NCBI RefSeq assembly: GCF_008831505.1
Contig: NZ_CP044507.1
Location: 124,001-188,000 of the forward strand
Length of the DNA stretch: 64,000 nt
Direction of reading: 5' to 3'
Source of the DNA: Chryseobacterium sp.
GTDB lineage: Bacteria; Bacteroidota; Bacteroidia; Flavobacteriales; Weeksellaceae
Below are positions 1 through 14,217 of this stretch, piece by piece. Positions within the stretch are counted from its first letter, which is position 1, and each line of letters begins with the position of its first letter. A program made the translations under genes and the position numbers. The notes below the pieces were generated by a model. It worked only from the letters and a program-made list of their open reading frames with translations. It did no database searches and had not been told where the DNA came from.

Positions 1-487
1 CAACCTGAACAAGGCTATTGAAGGTACTGAACTTGAGGGAAAATCCATTGAAGAGATCTGCAAAACAGGAACGGACAAGGCGGCGGTTAGAAACAACGGC
101 GGCGGACACTTCAACCACACTCTTTTCTGGGAAATCATGACTCCCGGTGGCATTAAGGAGCCTGTAGGAAATGTGAAAGCGGCCATTGAAACCTATGGCG
201 GTATGGAGAAATTCAAGACCGATTTTGCCGAAGCTGCCAAGACAAGATTCGGCTCCGGATGGGCGTGGCTTTGCAAAAAAGGCGATGGTTCGGTAACTGT
301 TTGTTCTACACCCAACCAGGACAACCCACTGATGCCGGTATCTGACTGTCAGGGAACGCCGGTTCTTGGACTTGATGTTTGGGAGCACGCCTATTACCTG
401 AACTACCAGAACAAAAGACCTGATTACGTTGCAGCGTTCTTCAGCGTTATTAACTGGGATAAAGTAGAGGAGCTTTTCAATAAATAA
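1..487 (+). CDS. sodA: Superoxide dismutase Fe/Mn type, 3' part
   Basis: The C-terminal 161 codons of an iron/manganese superoxide dismutase, which converts superoxide to hydrogen peroxide and oxygen. The frame is open from base 2, so the start lies outside the window. The segment GGGHFNHTLFW (bases about 107-139) carries a metal-ligand histidine, and DVWEHAYYL near the C terminus is the family signature with the Asp and His metal ligands. Gly residues around GGGHFNH fit either metal, so the cofactor is not decided here. A strong terminator follows. Confidence 0.95.
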   Translation, partial: NLNKAIEGTELEGKSIEEICKTGTDKAAVRNNGGGHFNHTLFWEIMTPGGIKEPVGNVKAAIETYGGMEKFKTDFAEAAKTRFGSGWAWLCKKGDGSVTVCSTPNQDNPLMPVSDCQGTPVLGLDVWEHAYYLNYQNKRPDYVAAFFSVINWDKVEELFNK

Positions 488-509
488 GCTTTTATCATAT
501 AAAACAGAA

Positions 510-535
510 GGTCCGGCAACTTGCCGGACCTTTTT
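510..535 (+). terminator. Rho-independent terminator after sodA
   Basis: GGTCCGGC and GCCGGACC form an 8-bp GC-rich stem (extendable to 10) around a 5-base loop, followed by six T. It ends the superoxide dismutase transcript. The convergent gene's stop is immediately downstream, so it may also act weakly in the other direction. Confidence 0.85.
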
Positions 536-536
536 G

Positions 537-947
537 CTATCTTGAATAATCCATGGCGCTAAGGCCGGTAAATCTTAGTTTGTATTTCCAGTTCACAAAG
601 GCGAATACCTGATAGAGTTTATACTCGAAATCCAGACCGTAATTTTCATTAGGATCGTAGTCTATTGAAGATTCTATGATGTTCCTGTAACGTCCGGACA
701 TATAATAGGAGTTCCACTCGTTTACCAGGCTTCTGTTCCGGTTTCGAAGGGTTTCCAGTGAGTACATGCTTTTAGGCTTGGCAATGGCATTCATAAAGTA
801 ATCAAACTGTGAGTCAATTACAGTCAGGTCCCATTCACCATCATCTTCTTTATTTTGTTTAATGGTGGTGTCGTTACCTTTGTTCTGTTGGGAAGTACAA
901 CTCATGCCTCCAAAATAGAGCGCGAGTAAAAAGATCAGCTTTTTCAT
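537..947 (-). CDS. Small hypothetical lipoprotein
   Basis: A 136-residue protein with a short hydrophobic signal peptide ending in the lipobox GGMSC (Cys17), so it is probably lipid-anchored in the envelope. After the Cys is a low-complexity polar linker rich in Gln, Asn, Lys and Asp, then a domain with many Tyr, Asn and Arg residues. I recognise no family. It is convergent with sodA and lies downstream of the exonuclease-phosphatase gene on the same strand, separated from it by a terminator, so it probably has its own promoter. Confidence 0.75.
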   Translation of the reverse strand: MKKLIFLLALYFGGMSCTSQQNKGNDTTIKQNKEDDGEWDLTVIDSQFDYFMNAIAKPKSMYSLETLRNRNRSLVNEWNSYYMSGRYRNIIESSIDYDPNENYGLDFEYKLYQVFAFVNWKYKLRFTGLSAMDYSR

Positions 948-989
948 GTTGAATCAGATATATAGGTAAAGCTACAAATTACCGACCAT

Positions 990-1017
990 AAAAAAACCGG
1001 AACAGCAATCCCGGTTT
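990..1017 (-). terminator. Terminator of the endonuclease/phosphatase-fold gene
   Basis: Read on the minus strand, AAACCGG and CCGGTTT pair across a 10-base loop and run into seven T. It lies just after the stop codon at 1036. Confidence 0.7.
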
Positions 1018-1035
1018 AAATTTAATTACAGGCAG

Positions 1036-2235
1036 TTACCTGGCTGGTGTATATTCTCTCTGAAGCACAGAAACGGCAGGGAAGTGGTCACTGTAACCTC
1101 CTGTGTAGCGGTCGCCGTCCCAGGAACGGTAAGGATAACCTTTCCATTGACCCTGCGAGTTTACAAGGTAAGACGGTGCGAAAATCTCAACTTTGTACAC
1201 AGAATAGGTGCCCGTCATTTTCTCCGGTGAATACAGGTTTTTTGAAACAATGATCTGGTCGAACAGGTTTGGTGCATCACGGTAGGCCAGTGAGGCAACA
1301 CCTGCTTTGTACAGTTTGGTCATCAGGTTGTAGTACGGCGATTTATCAGAAAGCTCAGAAGGTTCACCTACGGCACCCAGATGTTTCCTTAAACTTGGGC
1401 TCACGGGGTCGTCGTTAAAGTCACCCATGGCGATAAGCTTGATGCCCGGACTTTCGGCACTGGCTTTATCCATCTCTTCTTTCAGCGCTGCAGCGGCAGC
1501 GATACGTCTTGGCAGTGAACGGGCTTCGCCACCGCTCCGGGAAGGCCAGTGGTTCATGAAGACCGCGATTCTTTCGCCGTCAAGCAGGCCTTTCATCACG
1601 ATAATGTCACGGGTATAAACCCTTTTGCCTTCATCGTCAAAGATCTTGATTTCCTTTTTATAGGTTTCCGTTGGGCGGAATCTTTTTTTCTGATAGATAA
1701 TGGCATTGTCTACACCCCGTGCGTCATATGAATTGAAGTGCACGATGCCGTAATCACTTTTTGCCAGTAAGGGTTGGCTGATGAGGTCCTGCACCACCTG
1801 GCGGTTTTCAATTTCAAGAAGACCCATAATGGCTGGATTGTCATTGGTATGCTGACGGCCAAGTTCTGAAATTACCTTTGCCAGTTTGCCCATCTTGTCG
1901 TTGTACTTCTGGGTGTCCCAGTTCTTGGCACTGTTGGCAGTGAAATCATCGGCTAGGACCTGTTTTCTGATGACTTTCTTGCCTATCAGCAGTTCGTCGC
2001 TCCAGGGGCCACGGTAGTCCTCAGTGGTTTCCATCAGCTCTATAGAATCCAAGGGTACACTGCGGTGAAATGCCGGATTATTCCTGTTTTTGGTCCCGTC
2101 TATATAATCGAAGGAGGGAACAGTGTCCCAAAGGTTTTCCACGTTCATGAAAGCAACGGTGGCGCGCTGCACCTGCTTTTGCGAAAATACCATTCCGAAG
2201 CACAGTGTGGCGGTGATAATCAGATATTTTTTCAT
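1036..2235 (-). CDS. Secreted endonuclease/exonuclease/phosphatase-fold protein
   Basis: A 399-residue protein with an N-terminal signal peptide (about residues 1-18, ending FSQ). The motifs of the metal-dependent EEP superfamily appear in order: FMNVENLWD (Asn31, Glu33), GLLEIEN (about residue 140), NHWPSR, MGDFNDDP and the C-terminal SDHFPAV with the catalytic Asp-His. Members hydrolyse phosphodiester bonds in DNA, RNA or phospholipids; the substrate cannot be told from sequence. Export suggests scavenging of phosphate or nucleotides outside the cytoplasm. It is divergent from the TonB receptor and DUF5689 lipoprotein pair and may act with them. Confidence 0.85.
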   Translation of the reverse strand: MKKYLIITATLCFGMVFSQKQVQRATVAFMNVENLWDTVPSFDYIDGTKNRNNPAFHRSVPLDSIELMETTEDYRGPWSDELLIGKKVIRKQVLADDFTANSAKNWDTQKYNDKMGKLAKVISELGRQHTNDNPAIMGLLEIENRQVVQDLISQPLLAKSDYGIVHFNSYDARGVDNAIIYQKKRFRPTETYKKEIKIFDDEGKRVYTRDIIVMKGLLDGERIAVFMNHWPSRSGGEARSLPRRIAAAAALKEEMDKASAESPGIKLIAMGDFNDDPVSPSLRKHLGAVGEPSELSDKSPYYNLMTKLYKAGVASLAYRDAPNLFDQIIVSKNLYSPEKMTGTYSVYKVEIFAPSYLVNSQGQWKGYPYRSWDGDRYTGGYSDHFPAVSVLQREYTPAR

Positions 2236-2438
2236 TACAATATTTACGGTTATTTTAAGGGTGTAAAATTAATAATTATTTGACATCTAAACTGCAAAAT
2301 AGTTAAAAATAGATTCGTGATAATATGTGCCGCAGAAGGTTTTAAAATGCTGAAAATGTCTTTATAAGGTCCGCAAGGGTTCTGTTGAGTTTGATTCAAT
2401 AAAATGTTAAATATGTTTAACTTAACAAAAATTAAGTT

Positions 2439-2446
2439 TAATTTTG
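2439..2446 (+). promoter_or_regulatory. -7 box of the TonB receptor operon
   Basis: TAATTTTG matches the Bacteroidetes -7 consensus TAnnTTTG. A TTTAAC element lies about 17 bases upstream. The AT-rich 259-base divergent spacer (2236-2494) otherwise shows no gene. Confidence 0.6.
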
Positions 2447-2494
2447 CAGCCCTTTATGGAACCAGTATAAAAAGTAAATTTTAAATAATTTGTT

Positions 2495-5311
2495 ATGATT
2501 AAAAAACTGTCCTTAATCTCATTGTTTACACTGCTGCCTGCGTCTTTTTACTTCGCGCAGACCACTGTGTATGCTTATGTAAAGGATGCCGCAGGAAAAC
2601 CCGTTGAGAACGCCGAAATCGATCTGGCACAGTCCGGCAACGATGTAACGGCCGACAAGATCGGATATTTCCAGTTTGTAGATATGCAGCCCGGCCGCTA
2701 TCTGATTACTGTTTTCAAACCAAGCTTTGAACCAAAAATTGTGGAGTTCGAAGTTTCGGCAGATGAAAAAAGAAAGGATCTGGGCGTGATCAGTCTAAAT
2801 CCTTCGCCTACCGATGCGGGCGTATTGGTTATTGACGATTCTGCAGCCGACAATGACGAAGGTGGTTCGTCCATGCAGCCTACCATTGGTCTGTTAAGTT
2901 CAGGAAGAGACGTGTTCCAGAGTGTTACGGCCTTTGAACTGGGTGCCTACTGGTTCCGCCCGAGAGGTGTTGAGAACCGGTATGAAGATATTCTGTTCAA
3001 TGGAGTTTCGATGTCCAAGAATGATGATGGCAGAGTGGATTTCAGTAACTGGGGCGGTTTGAACGACGTTACCCGTTACCCTTTTGAGAACGTGGACAAT
3101 ATTACACCATCTGAATATACCTTCGGTAACCTGGGAGGTGTGGTATATTACAATACCCGTGCTTCCAGCTACCGTAAGCAAACTTCTCTGGCTTACTCCT
3201 TTACCAACAGAAGCTATTTCCACAGAGCAATGGCTACTTATTCCAGCGGTCTTACAAAGAACGGCTGGGCTTTTACATTCTCGGGAAGCCGCAGGTGGGC
3301 TGATGATGGTGTGATAGACGGTACTTATCAGGATTCTTACGCCTATTTTGCTGCAATTGAAAAACAGTTCAGCTCCAGACACGCAATTAACTTCACCGCT
3401 TTTGGTGCACCTACTTACCGGGCTTCCAATTCTCCTAATACTCAGGAAACGTATGACCTGATGGGTAAGAATTATAACTCCTACTGGGGATGGCAGGATG
3501 GTGAAAAAAGAAATTCAAGGATCAGGAGGGTATTTGAACCTGTTTTCATGCTTACAGATTATCTGAAATTAGGCGAAAACAGTAACTGGACCAATACCAT
3601 TTCCTATCAGTTCGGACGCGACGGACGCAGCAGGCTGGACTGGTTCCACGCTGCAGATCCTAACCCAACCTATTACAGAAAATTACCGGGATATATGTAC
3701 AGCGGCTTCCAGCTGCCGAACTCCGATGGTGGAGAGAATATCACGGATGCCGAACAGGCACAGTTTAATGACTATGTGAACCAGTGGCAAACCAATCCGC
3801 TCATCAGTCAGATAGACTGGAATTCCCTTTATTCAGCCAATATCCTGAACCGGTATGACATGAACGGGAACGAGCAGGGTGCGGTTTATACCATTGTGGA
3901 GGACGTTAATAAAGATAAAACTTTGAACTTTGCCTCTCACTTCGATACGAAACTTGCTTCCAACTGGAAACTGAACCTGAACTTCAACTATCAGAACCTG
4001 AAGTCGGATAATTTCCGTGAATTGAAGGACCTTCTGGGCGCGTTGTATGCCAACGACCTGAACGCATTCAACAATGATGCACCGAATGATGCAGACAATC
4101 CGGGTCGTCGGGTAATGGAAGGCGACAGAACACAGTATTCCTACGATCTTTTGCGTAATACCTATGCTCTGAACGCTTCTACAGAAGTGGATTTCCCAAA
4201 GTGGAATGTGATGGCCTCTGTGTTCTCTTCTTATTCTGAATCGCAGCGCGAAGGTAAGTTCAGAAACCCTCTTTATGCTGACAGCAAAGGAAAAAGTGAT
4301 ATTTACGATGCGTTTGACGCCGGGATTAAAGGTAGAGTGACCTATAAAATAGACGGACGTAACTTCATCGTTTATAACGGTGCGCTTTTCAGTCTGGCAC
4401 CAACTCTTAATGAGATCTTCATCAATCCGAGGGCTACAAACCTTATTACTCCGGGGGTAGAAAATCAGATTATCAACTCCAACGACCTGAGCTACATCCT
4501 GAGAGGTCAGATCCTGAAACTGAGACTGGGTGCTTATCACACCACAATGAATAACGCTACGGAAATCTCCAGATATTATGTGGATATCTCCAGTGAGACT
4601 GCAGATCAGGGTAATGCACTTGTTGCTGAGGTGTTAAGCGGCATCAACAAAACCTACAAAGGTCTTGAACTGGGTGCTGAAGTTAAGATTACACCAACCC
4701 TTTCTGCAAATGCGGTTGCAAGTTATGGCGATTACAGAATAACCAATAACCCGACCGTCTATACTACGGATGATGACAGTGTTGAGCGTTTGGGTAGCCC
4801 TGTACGTGAATGGGGAACCGCTCAGCTGAAGGATTATAAGGTTGCCGGGACACCTCAAAAGGCTTATTCCTTTGGACTTAGATATAATTCAACAAAATTC
4901 TGGTGGTTAGGTGCTTCCGCAAACTATCTGCAGGATCAGTTCCTGGATTTCTCCGCACTTAACAAGACCGCTGCGCTTTATACAGATCCTGTTACCGGCG
5001 ACAATTATCCGGGAGTTACTCCGGAGCAGATCGCAAGACTGACCGCTCAGCAGAAATTTGAAGACCAGTTTATGCTGAATGCCAATGCAGGTAAGACATT
5101 TGTGTACGGAAAGTACAGGATGGGCGTGAGTGTAAGTGTGAACAATATCCTGAACAACAGGGATTATGTAACAGGTGGGTTTGAGCAGGGCAGAAATGTA
5201 AACTTCCCTGAATCACTGGCCGATGCCAACCGTACCTACAGCTATTTTGGTCCTAAATTATGGTATGACAGAGGAAGGACCTTCTTTGCAAATGTTTATT
5301 TAAGATTCTAA
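2495..5311 (+). CDS. TonB-dependent receptor with carboxypeptidase-like domain
   Basis: A 938-residue outer-membrane receptor. It has a signal peptide (about 1-21, ending YFAQ), a CarboxypepD_reg-like beta-sandwich (about 22-105: VYAYVKDAAGKPVENAEI ... GYFQF ... PGRYLITV), a spacer rich in Asp and Ser, a plug domain (about 125-230) and a long beta-barrel ending in phenylalanine (NVYLRF). It would bind a substrate at the surface and import it with TonB energy. The next gene, 16 bases downstream, is a surface lipoprotein, an arrangement like SusC/SusD pairs but with DUF5689 in place of SusD. The substrate is unknown; the divergent exported phosphodiesterase-fold protein hints at a phosphate-containing or nucleic-acid-derived ligand. 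Confidence 0.9.
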   Translation: MIKKLSLISLFTLLPASFYFAQTTVYAYVKDAAGKPVENAEIDLAQSGNDVTADKIGYFQFVDMQPGRYLITVFKPSFEPKIVEFEVSADEKRKDLGVISLNPSPTDAGVLVIDDSAADNDEGGSSMQPTIGLLSSGRDVFQSVTAFELGAYWFRPRGVENRYEDILFNGVSMSKNDDGRVDFSNWGGLNDVTRYPFENVDNITPSEYTFGNLGGVVYYNTRASSYRKQTSLAYSFTNRSYFHRAMATYSSGLTKNGWAFTFSGSRRWADDGVIDGTYQDSYAYFAAIEKQFSSRHAINFTAFGAPTYRASNSPNTQETYDLMGKNYNSYWGWQDGEKRNSRIRRVFEPVFMLTDYLKLGENSNWTNTISYQFGRDGRSRLDWFHAADPNPTYYRKLPGYMYSGFQLPNSDGGENITDAEQAQFNDYVNQWQTNPLISQIDWNSLYSANILNRYDMNGNEQGAVYTIVEDVNKDKTLNFASHFDTKLASNWKLNLNFNYQNLKSDNFRELKDLLGALYANDLNAFNNDAPNDADNPGRRVMEGDRTQYSYDLLRNTYALNASTEVDFPKWNVMASVFSSYSESQREGKFRNPLYADSKGKSDIYDAFDAGIKGRVTYKIDGRNFIVYNGALFSLAPTLNEIFINPRATNLITPGVENQIINSNDLSYILRGQILKLRLGAYHTTMNNATEISRYYVDISSETADQGNALVAEVLSGINKTYKGLELGAEVKITPTLSANAVASYGDYRITNNPTVYTTDDDSVERLGSPVREWGTAQLKDYKVAGTPQKAYSFGLRYNSTKFWWLGASANYLQDQFLDFSALNKTAALYTDPVTGDNYPGVTPEQIARLTAQQKFEDQFMLNANAGKTFVYGKYRMGVSVSVNNILNNRDYVTGGFEQGRNVNFPESLADANRTYSYFGPKLWYDRGRTFFANVYLRF

Positions 5312-5327
5312 TAATAAAAAGACGATA

Positions 5328-7403
5328 ATGAAAAAATACAGTTCATTTCTAAGATCTCTGTACTTCATGATGGCGGCCCTGCTTATTACGGGTTGTGTAC
5401 ATGATGATATTTATGATGATCCTAATCTGGCCGGCTACGAATGTAAAGACCTTACGGCCAATATGACCATAGGCCAGGTGAAAGCGCTGAAACAGCCTAA
5501 CGTAGCTTATGTGTTTCCGGATGCTTCAGCCCCGGAAATGATTATGGAAGGATATGTTTCATCTACAGACGAGTCCGGAAATATTTACAAAACCATCTAC
5601 ATCCAGGATAATCCGGAGAATCCTACCCATGGTTTCACCATCAGTGTAGATGCTGTAAGCACATATACGAAGTTCCCGCAGGGATCCAAAGTATACATTA
5701 AGCTGAACGGTTTGGCGCTTGGAACGTATGGCGGACTTATACAGCTTGGCGTAAAGAATGCTGCTGCTACGGGACCTGATGCAGTTTCCAGAATTCCTGA
5801 AACCGCAGTTCCTGCACACATTTTCAGATCCTGTACAGAACGTGCGAAGATTGTACCTAAGGTGCTTACCCTTGCCCAGATGACTTCAGCGAATGACGAC
5901 CTGCTGGGTGCTTTGATACAGATTAACAATGCTGAATTTGACCGTACTGTTCTGTGCTCAGTTTTTGCACCGGACGGTGCTAGTGTAGACCGCCGTATTA
6001 ACGATGGAACGACTACTGCTACGAGAGTCGTGAGAAACAGTGGTTTTGCTTCTTTTGCCAACCAGACCCTGCCAAGCGGGAACGGAACTTTCGTGGGAAT
6101 CATGAGTAAGTTCAACTCTACTTACCAGATGTACATCAATAAGATCTCCGACCTGGATATGAATAACTTCCCAAGGCTGGATGGTATCGCGGCGGATCCG
6201 TGTGCCCTGGACCTTACGGGCCTTACACCAAAGACTGTTCAGGAAGTGAAGCAGATGTTCAGTGGTTCACTAACTGAAATTACCGGTAACTACGTTCTTA
6301 AAGGTAAGGTAACCGCTAATGACGAAACAGGTAACCTTTTCAAATATATTTATATTGAAGATGCGACAGGTGGTATACGTGTGAATATCAACAAAAACAA
6401 CCTGTACCAGGATGCCAGATTTAAAGTTGGGAAAGAAATATACATCAAACTTAATGGACTGTACATTAGAAACGTGAGTGGTGAGCTGCAACTTGGTTCA
6501 AACGACTCCAGCTCCGCTATTAATTACAGAGTAAAAGAAGATGATGTATACAAAACATTCTTTGATAGTAAGAAACCTTTGTCTGCACCGGTTCCAACCG
6601 AAAGAACGATTACCCAGCTTACAATGGCCGATGTGGGAAGATGGATTAAGATTAAAAATGTCAGATTTTCAGAGAGCGATCTGGGAGAGGTTTATGCAGC
6701 GGGTGGAGCAACTAACAGGACGTTATTAGACTGTGCTGGAAATCAGATTCTACTTAGAACAAGTAATTTTGCGAGTTTTGCTGATAAAATTGTAGATCCT
6801 GGACAAGGTGATGTATATGCAATTCTCAGCGTTTTTAATGGTACGTACCAACTTTGGATTCCAAAACAAATTCATGCTGATTTTGATAATCCAAGATGTG
6901 ACAGCGCTGTACCACCATCAATCCTTCTGAACGAAGAGTTTGAATCATCCTTTAATAGCGGAAACTTTACAGCAGTTAATGTTTCTGGAGTACAGGTTTG
7001 GGGAACCTCAAATCAGGGGCAGAGTAACTATTATGCAATTATGAATGGCTTTGCTAATGGTACGAACAATGCTAATGAAGACTGGTTGGTGTCTAAGGAG
7101 ATTTCCTTAGCAGGATTCAGTACTATAAATCTTACTTTCGATTCAGATGTCCGCTATAATGGATCCCCTTTGAAATTATACGTAACGGAAAATTATTCCG
7201 GCGATCCTACGACAACAGTTTGGACCGAACTATCTGCAACTTTTGATACGAACAATAACGCCTGGGGCTTTGTAAATTCTGGTAATATCAGCCTGAATGC
7301 GTACTCCGGCAAGAATATCAGAATCGCATTTAAATACGTTTCAACTACTTCCGGTGCAAATACCTGGGAACTCGATAACGTAAAGATTAAGGCAAAACAG
7401 TAA
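5328..7403 (+). CDS. DUF5689 surface lipoprotein with choice-of-anchor J domain
   Basis: A 691-residue lipoprotein with signal peptide and lipobox LITGC (Cys23). It has two similar DUF5689 units (about 43-290 and 298-525). Both contain KLNGL (near residues 125 and 374), an S-x-FASFA segment and an FN-(S/G)-TYQ-(M/L)-(Y/W)-I strand, so an internal duplication is clear. The C-terminal 160 residues (LLNEEFE ... WELDNVKIKA) resemble the choice-of-anchor J/jelly-roll domain used for surface binding. It is co-transcribed with the TonB receptor upstream and probably forms its extracellular binding partner. The second half is more AT-rich than the first. Confidence 0.82.
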   Translation: MKKYSSFLRSLYFMMAALLITGCVHDDIYDDPNLAGYECKDLTANMTIGQVKALKQPNVAYVFPDASAPEMIMEGYVSSTDESGNIYKTIYIQDNPENPTHGFTISVDAVSTYTKFPQGSKVYIKLNGLALGTYGGLIQLGVKNAAATGPDAVSRIPETAVPAHIFRSCTERAKIVPKVLTLAQMTSANDDLLGALIQINNAEFDRTVLCSVFAPDGASVDRRINDGTTTATRVVRNSGFASFANQTLPSGNGTFVGIMSKFNSTYQMYINKISDLDMNNFPRLDGIAADPCALDLTGLTPKTVQEVKQMFSGSLTEITGNYVLKGKVTANDETGNLFKYIYIEDATGGIRVNINKNNLYQDARFKVGKEIYIKLNGLYIRNVSGELQLGSNDSSSAINYRVKEDDVYKTFFDSKKPLSAPVPTERTITQLTMADVGRWIKIKNVRFSESDLGEVYAAGGATNRTLLDCAGNQILLRTSNFASFADKIVDPGQGDVYAILSVFNGTYQLWIPKQIHADFDNPRCDSAVPPSILLNEEFESSFNSGNFTAVNVSGVQVWGTSNQGQSNYYAIMNGFANGTNNANEDWLVSKEISLAGFSTINLTFDSDVRYNGSPLKLYVTENYSGDPTTTVWTELSATFDTNNNAWGFVNSGNISLNAYSGKNIRIAFKYVSTTSGANTWELDNVKIKAKQ

Positions 7404-7427
7404 CGTTCTTAGTCTTGTAATAATTAA

Positions 7428-7454
7428 AGCAATCTCATTTGAGGTTGCTTTTTT
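7428..7454 (+). terminator. Terminator after the DUF5689 gene
   Basis: AGCAATCTCA pairs with TGAGGTTGCT (one G-T pair) and a T-run follows. It ends the TonB receptor/DUF5689 operon. Confidence 0.8.
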
Positions 7455-7470
7455 GGTTGATAACAATTAA

Positions 7471-7500
7471 TCCTATTCTAACCACTGAGCTATAATCGCA
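7471..7500 (-). pseudogene. tRNA-like 5' fragment (D-arm remnant)
   Basis: On the minus strand, GCGATTATAGCTCAGTGG followed by TTAGAATAGG reads like the acceptor and D-arm half of a tRNA (the conserved ATAGCTCAGTtGGTTAGA). The second half of the D-stem does not pair (GAAT against GCTC). No anticodon loop or GGTTCGAATCC T-arm follows; the sequence runs into the terminator of the neighbouring operon instead. I read it as a decayed or truncated tRNA copy. Confidence 0.45.
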
Positions 7501-7565
7501 GCTTGATTTACAGTTTCCTGCTCTTAAAATTTCGGGCAATTCCAATTTTAGGAATCTAACTGAAA

Positions 7566-7589
7566 CAAAAAACCCTGACTTGGTCAGGG
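7566..7589 (-). terminator. Terminator of the DUF6702-like gene
   Basis: CCCTGAC and GTCAGGG form a 7-bp stem with a 3-base loop; on the minus strand it is followed by TTTTTTG. It lies 28 bases after the stop codon at 7617. Confidence 0.85.
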
Positions 7590-7616
7590 AGTAAATTTTT
7601 TAATAGTGCTATTTAA

Positions 7617-8087
7617 CTAAAACGACACTTCATTCACCTCTTTTCCTCTCTGGAAGTTCATTGTTTTCTGATTTCCTTTGTAAGCAATGTTCACCAAATT
7701 AAACTGCCTTGGAAAAGTACCCAGGAGAATAGTGTTTTTGATCTTCATACTGTTTACCTCGCCTACTCCTCCCGATTCAAAGTATACCCAAACTGTCTCA
7801 CCTTTTACCTGACTTCCAGTAAATGTCAGGGTCTTTGGGGTGCCGTTCACGTACACGTCGAAATTATTGTTCACATATTTCTTTACCTCAGCCTCAAACT
7901 GAGCAGTATTCGGATTGATTTTTATGGCGTCCGAAATATGGCTCGTATTCAGTTTTGTGGTGAATTTAAGTGTTTTGCTGCCTTCTACAAAATCCACCTT
8001 GGTCATTGATGAATAAAAGTCCTGCGAAGCAAAACTCAGCATCACCATAATGGCGAAAATGGAAATTATATGTAAATATTTTTTCAT
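7617..8087 (-). CDS. DUF6702-like exported protein
   Basis: A 156-residue protein with a signal peptide (about 1-20, MLSFASQ). The mature part begins DFYSSMTKVDF and has alternating strands, with KIKNTILLGTFPRQFNLVNI and KTMNFQRGKE near the C terminus. This layout resembles DUF6702, a small periplasmic family of Flavobacteriia with no known role. The gene is monocistronic, with its own terminator. Its family membership is by resemblance only. Confidence 0.65.
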   Translation of the reverse strand: MKKYLHIISIFAIMVMLSFASQDFYSSMTKVDFVEGSKTLKFTTKLNTSHISDAIKINPNTAQFEAEVKKYVNNNFDVYVNGTPKTLTFTGSQVKGETVWVYFESGGVGEVNSMKIKNTILLGTFPRQFNLVNIAYKGNQKTMNFQRGKEVNEVSF

Positions 8088-12108: not shown

Positions 12109-14217
12109 ATGAAAGGATTTGCTATTTTAGGACTTTGCGCTGGTCCTGTCTATTTTGCGCAATCTATGCCGGCTGACACGGCAAAAATTCAGGAAATTGA
12201 AAGTGTAACCTTTACAAAACGTCTGCCCGTTGCACGTGAAATCGTAAACGTGGCAAAGGACCTGGACCACAAAAACCTGGGTCAGGATTTGCCTGTACTC
12301 CTCAAAAACCAAACTTCAGTAGTGGCCACCTCCGATGCGGGAAACGGAATTGGTTATACCGGTTTCAGGATTCGTGGTGTGGGAGGAAGTGGCATTAATG
12401 TGATGATGAATGGCGTACCTTACAATGATTCGGAATCGCAGGGGACTTTCTTTGTCAATGTGCCCGACCTTACCAGTTCGGCGTCGCAAATCATCATCCA
12501 GCGGGGTGTGGGTACCTCATCCAACGGTGTTTCCGCATTTGGAGCTACCGTAAATGTAATTTCCAAAGATCCCGCCGAAACATTTTACGTCCGTTCCGAC
12601 AATTCATTCGGTTCGTTTAACACCTATAAATACTCGGCTGAGGTTGGATCAGGAAAATTCTGGAAAAACCGCTTAAGTTTGATGGGTCGGTATACCGGCA
12701 TACAGTCAGATGGTTATATAGACAGGGCAGCTTCTGATCTTAAGTCCTATAACCTGAGTGCCCTTTTTGAGGAAGGGAATACGGCTGTGAGATTCCTTGC
12801 GTTCGGCGGCAGGGAAAAAACCTATCAGGCCTGGAACGGCATTGACCGCGAAACCTGGCTTACAAAACCACGGACCAACTTCTCCGGGGCTATTTATGAT
12901 TCCAATTGGGAAAATATCGTAGGTTTTTACGATAATGAAACCGATAATTATCGCCAAAACCACTACCAGCTGCTCTGGAACCAGCGTTTTAACCCACAGT
13001 GGAAACTGGAAACCACTTTGCACTATACAAAAGGCAGGGGCTTCTACGAAAACTATAAGCAGGGAGCGGATTATTCAAAATACAACCTTCCCGACCAGGG
13101 TGCTTCGGAATATTCAGATTTCATCCGCAAGAAATGGCTGGACAATGATTTTTACGGCGGAGTAAGCACACTCTATGGCAAGTTTGATAATCTGGATCTG
13201 AATATCGGCCTTGTAGCAAACCATTATTTCGGTAAACATTTCGGTGAGGTGTCTGATGTGTATGTACCAAATATTTCGGGGCACGAATACTACCGCAACA
13301 ACGGTGTTAAAGATGAGCTTGCAGGTTTTGCGAAAGCAATTTACCGCCTGAATAAGCTAGAAATCTTTGGTGATTTGCAGCTGCGTAATATTTCGTACAA
13401 TACCGAAGTAATTATGGAAGGCGACGGTGAAGGCATGAATCTAAGTAAAGAATGGCTTTTCTTTAATCCAAAGTTTGGTTTGAATTACCTGATCAATTCC
13501 GGGAAAATCTTCTTATCATATGCTCATGCGCAGCGCGAGCCCAGCCGCGATGATCTTTTTGCCAACACGCAGACCCAGCCGGAAAAACTGCATGATTTCG
13601 AAGCCGGATTGGAAAAAACACTGGGTAATGTAATGCTTACAGCCAACTTGTATTTCATGAACTACCGTAACCAGCTGGTTCTGAGCGGAAAGATTAACGA
13701 TATTGGTGAGTTTATACGCGAAAACAGCGGAGAAAGTTACAGGACCGGTATCGAACTGGGAGCCGCGGCAAAATTCTCCGAAAAGTGGAACGTCTCCGGT
13801 AATCTGAACGTCAGCCGAAACCGCAACCGCAATTTTATCCGGCAGGATGCCAGCGGAATTCAAAACCTGGGCGATACACCCATTTCCTTTTCCCCAGATA
13901 TGATAGGGAATCTTATGGTGAATTATACTCCTCTTAAAAATTTCACCCTGGGCTTGCAGAATCAGTATGTAGGCAAACAGTTTCTGGACAACACCAATGA
14001 TGCCCAACTGCAGTTGGATGATTACCTGCTTACCGATTTTAATGCGAGATATATTCTGAGCCTGAAAAAAACAGATTTGGACTTCAAGCTCCTGGTCAAT
14101 AATATTTTGGACCGTAAATATGTGAATAACGGTTATGTTTATGATGGCTCACCCTATTACTTCTCCCAGGCAGGCATTAATTTTATGTTCGGAGTTTCTG
14201 TTTTACTGAAGAAATAA
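12109..14217 (+). CDS. TonB-dependent receptor, predicted thiamine uptake
   Basis: A 702-residue outer-membrane receptor. It has a short signal peptide (about 1-18, PVYFAQS), no carboxypeptidase-like domain, a plug (about 35-155: GFRIRGVGGSGINVMMNGVPYND ... GTSSNGVSAFGATVNVIS) and a beta-barrel. The TPP riboswitch in its leader predicts repression by thiamine pyrophosphate, so the likely substrate is thiamine or its phosphates. THI-box-controlled TonB receptors are known from Bacteroidetes by comparative genomics. No inner-membrane thiamine transporter or thi gene adjoins it. Confidence 0.88.
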   Translation: MKGFAILGLCAGPVYFAQSMPADTAKIQEIESVTFTKRLPVAREIVNVAKDLDHKNLGQDLPVLLKNQTSVVATSDAGNGIGYTGFRIRGVGGSGINVMMNGVPYNDSESQGTFFVNVPDLTSSASQIIIQRGVGTSSNGVSAFGATVNVISKDPAETFYVRSDNSFGSFNTYKYSAEVGSGKFWKNRLSLMGRYTGIQSDGYIDRAASDLKSYNLSALFEEGNTAVRFLAFGGREKTYQAWNGIDRETWLTKPRTNFSGAIYDSNWENIVGFYDNETDNYRQNHYQLLWNQRFNPQWKLETTLHYTKGRGFYENYKQGADYSKYNLPDQGASEYSDFIRKKWLDNDFYGGVSTLYGKFDNLDLNIGLVANHYFGKHFGEVSDVYVPNISGHEYYRNNGVKDELAGFAKAIYRLNKLEIFGDLQLRNISYNTEVIMEGDGEGMNLSKEWLFFNPKFGLNYLINSGKIFLSYAHAQREPSRDDLFANTQTQPEKLHDFEAGLEKTLGNVMLTANLYFMNYRNQLVLSGKINDIGEFIRENSGESYRTGIELGAAAKFSEKWNVSGNLNVSRNRNRNFIRQDASGIQNLGDTPISFSPDMIGNLMVNYTPLKNFTLGLQNQYVGKQFLDNTNDAQLQLDDYLLTDFNARYILSLKKTDLDFKLLVNNILDRKYVNNGYVYDGSPYYFSQAGINFMFGVSVLLKK

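Follow-up and report, generated by a model that had tools for sequence, protein, structure and literature searches.

The window, a stretch of 64,000 nucleotides of the Chryseobacterium sp. contig NZ_CP044507.1, was found to contain three neighbouring genes near its start. The gene at 1036–2235 on the minus strand encodes a protein of 399 amino acids, a predicted periplasmic nuclease/phosphodiesterase of the Exo_endo_phos_3 type (EEP enzyme). It is followed on the plus strand by the gene of an outer-membrane protein of 938 amino acids with a predicted TonB-dependent-receptor fold (2495–5311) and by the gene of a DUF5689 lipoprotein of 691 amino acids with a lipobox at Cys23 (5328–7403). The first-pass annotation had described the receptor and lipoprotein genes as an operon, and the open reading frames were indeed separated by a gap of only 16 bases, followed by a terminator-like hairpin on the plus strand at 7426–7451. 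A second terminator-like hairpin was present 3' of the EEP gene (994–1017, minus strand); the hairpin scan gave 13 such sites in this region, where shuffled sequence gave 5.8. The EEP gene was divergent from the receptor gene across a spacer of exactly 259 bases (2236–2494), as annotated, and in 79 named loci the spacer ranged from 102 to 312 bases with a median of 247. The spacer contained a TAnnTTTG element, TAATTTTG (2439–2446, plus strand), 56 bases upstream of the receptor start, which resembles the Bacteroidota -7 promoter element. The same motif was found 30–110 bases upstream of the start in 92 of 99 spacers, whereas shuffling the spacers left it in 7.7 on average. No Rfam family was matched in positions 1–8000, and no 10-mer with eight or more copies, counted over both strands together, as sought for an uptake signal sequence, was found in the 64-kb window. 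Uptake-signal densities of the Neisseria or Haemophilus type exceed what the window shows.

The EEP enzyme matched PF19580 (Exo_endo_phos_3) with an E-value of 1.6e-92 and 310 bits (cut-off 27). The residues N31, E143, N228-H229, D272, N274 and D383-H384 were invariant in an alignment of 16 rows, and these motifs are presumably catalytic; in a later, larger set, 5 of 21 EEP proteins contained GDYNDDP in place of GDFNDDP. The score against the ExeM/NucH profile NF033681 was 26.6 bits, below the cut-off of 300, and sequence searches of solved structures with the protein and with its profile gave no match. The enzyme had been annotated as exported and secreted. On inspection by eye the N-terminus was signal-peptide-like, which is consistent with export, while no lipobox or T9SS tail was seen by eye in the 16 EEP members inspected and no secretion-tail profile matched the window enzyme. 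Because a signal-peptide-like N-terminus was present without a lipobox or a T9SS tail, a predicted periplasmic location is likelier than a secreted one. The EEP_3 type was more widespread than the receptor, being present in 96 of 158 genomes, of which 36 had a receptor match, and it thus also occurs on its own.

In the receptor, CarboxypepD_reg (residues 25–92; 2567–2770, plus strand) was the only Pfam domain above the curated cut-off, and no plug or barrel Pfam domain was matched. The AlphaFold model of the protein had a mean pLDDT of 58.8, with residues 1–220 below 50 and the plug part modelled at low confidence. A Foldseek search with this model gave Fiu (6bpm) as the best match, with an E-value of 9.7e-22, and the 50 matches listed were TonB-dependent receptors. 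The name of TonB receptor holds because of this structural likeness, and the protein is, by its predicted fold, a TonB-dependent receptor. A sequence search of solved structures with the protein alone gave no match; the receptor profile mostly matched CarboxypepD-like domains, together with weak OprC matches.

The lipoprotein was matched twice by PF18942 (DUF5689; E 8.1e-123). The two DUF5689 domains, at 5454–6152 (contig 129454–130152) and 6231–6860 (contig 130231–130860), were followed by a C-terminal jelly-roll domain of the choice-of-anchor J, cleaved-adhesin or MAM-like kind at 6924–7388 (residues 533–687), where the choice-of-anchor J profile NF038128 was found; all three are on the plus strand. 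The DUF5017 score was 24.8 bits, under the cut-off of 28.8, and that of the Riemerella protein was likewise under the cut-off. There was no SusD Pfam match at E ≤ 0.01, and no match in sequence searches of solved structures with the lipoprotein and its profile. In the Foldseek search, ranks 1–3 were HIN200-dsDNA structures (E 1.7e-9 to 2.3e-8), with a low whole-chain TM of 0.16/0.24 for the whole lipoprotein chain as query, and Teb1 was found at ranks 12, 22 and 33. Matches of PF01336 (OB) in DUF5689 proteins were under the cut-off. By these matches DUF5689 may be OB-fold-like; the domains have a charge near neutral, and no DNA-binding motif was identified in them. Among 12 long DUF5689-matching ORFs scanned, four contained the EEP domain PF03372 in the same chain and four contained PLDc_2. 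Fusions of DUF5689 and EEP with a T9SS tail occur. A distant DUF5689 lipoprotein (L153) was preceded by SusC/SusD-like ORFs and followed by a metallophosphatase and a GDPD. In our literature search, DUF5689 was named only in PMC8459023.

The receptor was present in 116 of the 120 genomes of the family sample, mostly as a single copy (120 merged places in the 116 genomes). The three genes had the geometry of the window in 105 of these 116 genomes, in 79 of 80 named loci and, within the phylum sample, in 16 of 24 genomes with a strong receptor; the three families thus co-occur non-randomly in Bacteroidota, as the uptake locus of the first-pass annotation presupposed. A divergent EEP gene lay within 2.5 kb of the receptor in 106 of the 116 genomes, against an expectation of 0.0006–0.0009 per genome under uniform placement. 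In the other eight of these 24 genomes the EEP gene was not adjacent to the receptor; five of the seven from genus g34 are among them, with the gene 16–41 kb away or on another contig. Three genomes contained a second, rearranged set of receptor, DUF5689 and EEP genes, all on one strand. Both genomes of genus g22, a single lineage, jointly lacked ComEC, DprA, DUF5689 and an adjacent EEP gene. G007, G029 and G033 had no DUF5689 match, yet ComEC and DprA were kept. In G033 the receptor was absent as well; it was set aside as a counter-example because its EEP gene (L042) starts 73 bases from a contig end, and an assembly break may explain the missing receptor. Two genomes without ComEC and DUF5689, G031 (56% complete) and G087 (81%), were too incomplete to count.

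Two deep receptor alleles, A and B, were found to swap between species, and the receptor of the window belongs to allele A. Trees of EEP, ComEC, SOD and DUF6146 were examined in 21 genomes chosen by receptor type, not at random. The EEP tree contained a single A/B split with 100/100 support, matching the receptor labels (21 genomes), whereas 5 changes of receptor label were found in the ComEC tree (21 genomes) and 4 in the tree of SOD, a nearby gene (20 rows). The DUF6146 tree contained 4 changes, of which the starred branches force only 1, and is therefore weak. The EEP gene is co-inherited with the receptor through the allele swaps, whereas ComEC and SOD follow the species. Judged by sequence comparison, the three genes probably form one conserved, exchangeable unit.

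Natural transformation of the duck bacterium Riemerella anatipestifer is reported to require RA0C_RS04915 and RA0C_RS04920 individually, markerless deletion of either gene bringing transformation below detection (PMC8459023). As in the window, the first encodes an outer-membrane protein with a CarboxypepD_reg domain and the second, next to it, a lipoprotein of the DUF5689-DUF5017/choice-of-anchor J type, and the divergent EEP neighbour is the same. The two receptors were 46% identical and homologous over their whole length; the window lipoprotein contains two DUF5689 domains and its counterpart one. The order recA-dinB-sdhB-sdhA-sdhC-comEC-x-carboxylase-EEP-receptor-DUF5689 was found in three Riemerella genomes (genus g2; G052, G066, G076), and the published tags are 04870 for RecA, 04895 for ComEC, 04915 and 04920 (PMC8459023). 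Because the gene order matches these tags, the counterpart of the window enzyme is, by position, RA0C_RS04910. In the available text of PMC8459023, this gene was examined by qRT-PCR only, is absent from the table of transformation-defective transposon mutants, has no deletion described and is not treated as part of the system. The locus was 4.4 kb from the comEC domain match in Riemerella G052 and 4.9 kb from dprA in G025. The window genome had matches to ComEC, NamZ_N/DUF1343 and DprA, but its comEC (C1:2303397) is, unlike that of R. anatipestifer, far from the triad. Lactamase_B, the strand-degrading domain, was not matched in any of the 11 flavobacterial ComECs scanned, in agreement with PMC6299819 as far as its available text goes. 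Its absence is not tied to the locus, since it was also found in G278, G308 and G439, which are genomes without a strong receptor. Among 293 genomes of the order, ComEC was present in 211 of 211 with the receptor and in 41 of 82 without it (these 41 were tallied by hand, consistent with the totals). Of 20 ComEC-negative genomes listed, with 21 more not listed, 15 belonged to family f44 and were of 0.3–0.6 Mb; because at least 15 ComEC-negatives are such small genomes, genome reduction confounds the nesting of receptor within ComEC, and we gave it little weight as evidence.

We consider it reasonably probable that the triad is a natural-transformation DNA-uptake unit of Flavobacteriia, not a nutrient importer. 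The surface lipoprotein, with its tandem OB-like DUF5689 domains and jelly-roll tip, would capture extracellular double-stranded DNA and pass it to the TonB-dependent receptor, which would carry it across the outer membrane. We infer DNA as the ligand and the barrel as its route, and likewise a periplasmic site and a strand-processing role for the EEP nuclease, which would nick, trim or strip one strand; ComEC, in this lineage without a nuclease domain, would then import the remaining strand. The essential role of receptor and lipoprotein is known, from published genetics, for R. anatipestifer only; the enzyme enters the model as a newly proposed candidate. The reading is supported by the Riemerella gene order, the triad counts, the EEP tree, the DUF5689 fusions, the HIN200 matches, the domain content of the ComECs, the joint loss in g22 and the lowered transformation of tonBA and tonBB mutants. 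Against it stand the absence of RS04910 from the mutant table, the genomes with a non-adjacent EEP gene or with EEP_3 and no receptor, those that keep ComEC and DprA without a DUF5689 match, the ComECs free of Lactamase_B in genomes without a strong receptor, the near-neutral charge of DUF5689 and the low TM of its structural match, and the failure to transform F. johnsoniae. In the published model of DNA uptake by Flavobacteriia, neither the crossing of the outer membrane nor the nuclease that degrades one strand is proven. The locus offers a concrete three-part candidate, kept across the family and beyond, and names a likely nuclease; should the reading be right, even polymers of the size of double-stranded DNA would be within reach of import through a TonB-dependent receptor, and a first molecular role could be assigned to DUF5689. 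More speculatively, and rather doubtfully at present, the triad might be a complete DNA importer in itself, powered by TonB and standing in for the type IV pilus machinery, with an OB-fold lipoprotein that catches DNA and a dedicated periplasmic nuclease that supplies the strand-degrading step missing from flavobacterial ComEC. The two alleles, which would move between species as a cassette of EEP, receptor and lipoprotein genes, might then represent types of DNA recognition or of surface escape. The fold of Streptococcus pneumoniae EndA differs from that of EEP. EndA, which is membrane-bound unlike the window enzyme, is a candidate functional analogue, being a separate nuclease for a ComEC that has no active nuclease domain of its own (PMC12455585). 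ExeM/NucH and the T9SS-tailed fusions combine a binding domain with an EEP catalytic domain, which the fusions carry on a single chain; in the window, binder and enzyme are separate proteins.

The first-pass annotation had compared the layout to SusC/SusD loci and proposed nucleic acids, phospholipids or other phosphoesters as substrates. Such loci also contain a TonB-dependent receptor fold with CarboxypepD_reg, a downstream lipoprotein and a hydrolase gene, and the idea of an uptake unit of receptor, lipoprotein and phosphodiesterase-fold enzyme was retained. In contrast to SusC/SusD loci, no SusD-type domain was matched, the hydrolase is divergent and nuclease-fold, and the locus is near-universal in the family, not substrate-specialised. 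Nucleic acid is a likely substrate, but the use of nucleic acids or other phosphoesters as a phosphate or carbon source by a SusCD-like 'Pus' locus, with the transformation defect a by-product of lost bulk DNA import, is in our view unlikely. Flavobacterium has Pi-induced loci of a TonB-dependent receptor and a phosphodiesterase; its PUS I–IV clusters follow the same receptor, lipoprotein and phosphoesterase logic with PusD or FI/FII lipoproteins and PhoA or PDE enzymes, and outside the clusters it has Fjoh_3841, an orphan Pi-induced receptor whose sole domain, pf13620, resembles that of the window receptor, and Fjoh_0074, an orphan and weakly Pi-induced Endo/exonuclease/phosphatase (log2 1.15; PMC8115612, available text). 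The two are possible orthologues of the window receptor and enzyme. The surroundings of L153 also fit a nutrient role, which may belong to a different DUF5689 subfamily of that type. The nutrient reading is less likely because the R. anatipestifer counterparts are each essential for transformation, and it is also opposed by the near-universal, mostly single-copy occurrence of the receptor and by the finding, in the available text of PMC8383284, that removal of phosphate lowers R. anatipestifer transformation. The receptor was also never found without ComEC in the order, though here genome reduction confounds.

That receptor and lipoprotein import DNA beside an independent housekeeping phosphodiesterase, a mere neighbour, we regard as improbable. 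The absence of the enzyme from the listed mutants, its non-adjacent copies in the phylum sample and EEP_3 elsewhere without the receptor would fit this, but the enzyme tracks the receptor allele through swaps in which ComEC and SOD track species, and the conserved family geometry, the rearranged one-strand sets and the DUF5689-EEP fusions argue for a partner. It is more improbable still that the pair acts in envelope biogenesis or on a different substrate, its loss blocking transformation only as a secondary consequence. The screen also gave several genes of seemingly indirect effect, among them an apolipoprotein N-acyltransferase, an amidase and a lysophospholipid acyltransferase, and loss of a DUF1343 protein likewise dropped transformation below detection (PMC8459023); complete loss of transformation alone is therefore no proof of a direct role. 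Against an indirect effect stand the nearness of the locus to comEC in G052 and to dprA in G025, the OB-like match of the modelled lipoprotein and the fusions of DUF5689 to nuclease domains. The tonBA and tonBB mutants of R. anatipestifer are also reported to transform less, the tonBB effect being ascribed by its authors to iron (PMC8383284). All homologues are said to be present in F. johnsoniae, yet it was not transformable under the conditions described (PMC8459023). In R. columbina, a preference for self-DNA was reported, with candidate k-mers that were only A/T-rich (PMC7965970).

The locus was found to contain two divergent transcription units, with a spacer of 259 b between them and a terminator-like hairpin downstream of each. 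One unit encodes an exported EEP enzyme (1036-2235, minus strand; 310 bits to Exo_endo_phos_3, PF19580), and the other encodes a receptor (2495-5311, plus strand) and a DUF5689 lipoprotein (5328-7403, plus strand). The layout proposed in the first-pass annotation, a receptor-lipoprotein pair with the EEP enzyme divergent from it across this spacer, was borne out by the ORFs and the domain matches. A promoter-like TAnnTTTG element was present 56 b upstream of the receptor start and recurred in 92 of 99 spacers. CarboxypepD_reg was the only Pfam domain above cut-off in the receptor, and its structure model (mean pLDDT 58.8) resembled TonB-dependent receptors (best E 9.7e-22). In the lipoprotein, DUF5689 occurred twice, together with a choice-of-anchor J domain. 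Cys23 of this protein was invariant among 30 aligned members, 25 of which fitted the lipobox pattern, and acidic residues followed the cysteine in the rows listed; together these residues presumably form a surface-export signal. The 16 EEP enzymes inspected by eye showed a signal-peptide-like N-terminus and had neither a lipobox nor a long C-terminal tail. A further TonB-dependent receptor, this one bearing a regular Plug domain, was found at 12109-14217 and is not part of this locus. A second EEP_3 gene (353 aa frame) was located outside the locus in the same genome (G000:C1:541425-542339), and most genomes of the family contained two EEP_3 matches.

In 120 genomes of the family, the receptor was found in 116, an EEP_3 gene in 120 and a DUF5689 gene in 113. 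Among the matches listed, the EEP gene was divergent, upstream and within 2.5 kb of the receptor in 106 of the 116 receptor genomes, DUF5689 was downstream in 112, and both neighbours were present in 105. Among the same matches, EEP was absent from the receptor's contig in five genomes (G003, G013, G057, G071, G092); elsewhere it was displaced by 144 kb (G025) or 6.3 kb (G046). The DUF5689 match was absent in G007 and G029, and the receptor of G022 and G045 had neither neighbour. ORFs matching the EEP enzyme adjoin the receptor divergently in G007 (L035), outside the matches behind these counts. In the phylum sample, the receptor match was strong (at least 490 bits) in 24 of 158 genomes, with DUF5689 downstream in 23 and a divergent EEP in 16, including 13 of the 21 outside the family. 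Among the 217 loci found, the 80 best were named, and 79 of these had the triad; in the remaining one, L082, the receptor lies 1.1 kb from a contig end. Under uniform placement, the chance of the EEP position was estimated at <0.001 per genome. The co-occurrence of the three families across Bacteroidota, on which the proposal of an uptake locus had been made to depend, thus proved non-random. Against a single unit, EEP was 16-41 kb away or on another contig in five of seven genomes of one genus (g34), and EEP_3 was frequent in phylum genomes without the receptor.

Two deep receptor alleles were found, A (this locus) and B (Riemerella and many Chryseobacterium), intermixed inside two genera (g20, g26). 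In 21 genomes selected by receptor type, the EEP and receptor trees shared a single A/B split with 100/100 support in both, whereas the ComEC tree followed genus and required five label changes. The tree of the SOD gene, the neighbour following DUF6146 at most of the loci, required four (20 rows). The DUF6146 tree also required four; it is weak evidence, because well supported branches force only one. Within g26, the A and B receptors were 48% identical and the EEP proteins 71%, whereas the A alleles of g26 and g1 shared 82% (receptor) and 80% (EEP) identity. Since the EEP tree and identities track the receptor allele and ComEC and SOD do not, the enzyme is exchanged together with the receptor, and the exchange boundary lies between EEP and SOD. 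Both alleles occurred in genome G019 (180 contigs, 89% complete), on contigs C37 and C75, and each was accompanied by an EEP and a DUF5689 gene of its own. G046, G062 and G073 possessed an additional, divergent set of receptor, DUF5689 and EEP genes, all on one strand, which is another arrangement of the same three families. These sets (L049, L034 and L033, respectively) were flanked by fimbrillin-like (Mfa_like_1) and clostripain-family peptidase genes, named from a Pfam scan of L033.

In the open-licence literature, one paper was found to name DUF5689: PMC8459023, in which R. anatipestifer transposon mutants were screened for natural transformation. According to the portions of that paper available, deletion of RA0C_RS04915 (a CarboxypepD_reg outer-membrane protein) or of RS04920 (DUF5689 and DUF5017) brought transformation below detection, and its model already proposes that 04920 binds DNA and that 04915 gives passage, with an unknown nuclease. 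In three Riemerella genomes (G052, G066, G076) the gene order was recA, dinB, sdhB, sdhA, sdhC, comEC, a small ORF, a carboxylase, EEP, receptor and DUF5689, where ComEC and the carboxylase were named by Pfam in G052 and recA, dinB and sdh by eye. As this order agrees with the published tags (RecA 04870, ComEC 04895, then 04915 and 04920), the counterpart of the EEP enzyme is RA0C_RS04910, which those portions mention once, as an upstream gene with unaltered transcription in the mutant. The triad was also present in a fourth Riemerella genome (G001), where about 10 kb containing other genes separates EEP from comEC. The distance from comEC to the receptor was 4.4 kb in G052, and that from dprA (L038, 38-1072) was 4.9 kb in G025. 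The transformation role of the receptor and the lipoprotein is already known; the three-part unit, its co-inheritance and the nuclease proposal are added here. No paper linking the EEP enzyme to the pair, or assigning DUF5689 a fold, was found in the open-licence literature, although such absence is not proven.

Eleven flavobacterial ComECs were scanned (10 of 13 fetched, and Riemerella L051), including that of the window genome; all contained Competence and DUF4131, and none had a Lactamase_B match. Three of them belong to genomes in which no strong receptor was found (G278, G308, G439), so the absence of Lactamase_B is a lineage trait, in agreement with the accessible part of PMC6299819. A periplasmic EEP enzyme co-inherited with a DNA receptor would be a natural candidate for the nuclease missing from ComEC. 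A possible functional parallel is EndA of S. pneumoniae, a membrane-bound nuclease named in PMC12455585 that acts as a separate protein alongside a ComEC with no active nuclease domain. Two genomes of one genus (g22), G022 (99% complete) and G045 (93%), a single lineage, were without ComEC, DprA, DUF5689 and an adjacent EEP and retained NamZ_N/DUF1343 and a receptor. Of the seven family genomes in which DUF5689 had no match, four were without ComEC (G022, G031, G045, G087) and three had it (G007, G029, G033). No receptor genome of the order sample was without ComEC, a comparison confounded by genome reduction.

The lipoprotein model (mean pLDDT 79.9, pTM 0.54) matched HIN200-dsDNA chains at Foldseek ranks 1-3 and the telomerase factor Teb1 at ranks 12, 22 and 33. 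Because arabinanase occupied ranks 4-5 and whole-chain TM scores were low, the possible likeness to these DNA-binding proteins is taken as a lead only. The C-terminal domain was a jelly roll whose best matches were 8jiy, a carbohydrate-binding domain (Z 16.5, 160 residues, 3.0 A), and 4itc, a gingipain cleaved-adhesin domain (Z 15.1, 150 residues, 2.7 A). Among 21 hand-picked DUF5689-hit ORFs from other Bacteroidota, 12 long ones were domain-scanned: four combined DUF5689 with an EEP domain (PF03372) in one chain (L138, L151, L152, L154), four with PLDc_2 (L145, L148, L149, L150), and four had neither (L140, L143, L146, L147), DUF5689 itself being under the scan threshold in L146. The DUF5689 domains are not basic, which counts against DNA handling.

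A less likely alternative is that the triad scavenges nucleic acids or other phosphoesters as nutrients. The available text of PMC8115612 describes Fjoh_3841, a Pi-induced orphan TBDT of F. johnsoniae with the same single-domain profile as our receptor, and Fjoh_0074, a weakly Pi-induced orphan Endo/exonuclease/phosphatase; nutrient scavenging would gain strength if these were orthologues of the receptor and the enzyme. DUF5689 lipoproteins of another subfamily also follow SusC/SusD-like ORFs, called from size and position (L153 in G198, L156 in G267, L157 in G121), and in L153 the distant lipoprotein is followed by a calcineurin-like phosphoesterase, a GDPD and a GDSL lipase. In the parts of PMC8459023 available, F. 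johnsoniae could not be transformed under the conditions tested, which pulls against DNA uptake, and 04910 was not in the list of transposon mutants, which pulls against the enzyme's role. DNA uptake for transformation, the more likely reading, draws on the deletion phenotypes of 04915 and 04920 in that same study.

The C-termini of the lipoprotein in close relatives, judged by eye from an alignment (A4), apparently carried at least three unrelated domains on one DUF5689 lipoprotein, as if the C-terminal tip were exchanged among them. In G035, which is closely related to the window genome, the DUF5689 gene was apparently spread over two frames, one of 326 aa and one of 357 aa (contig C1, about 1797161-1798563), owing to an assembly error or a real break.
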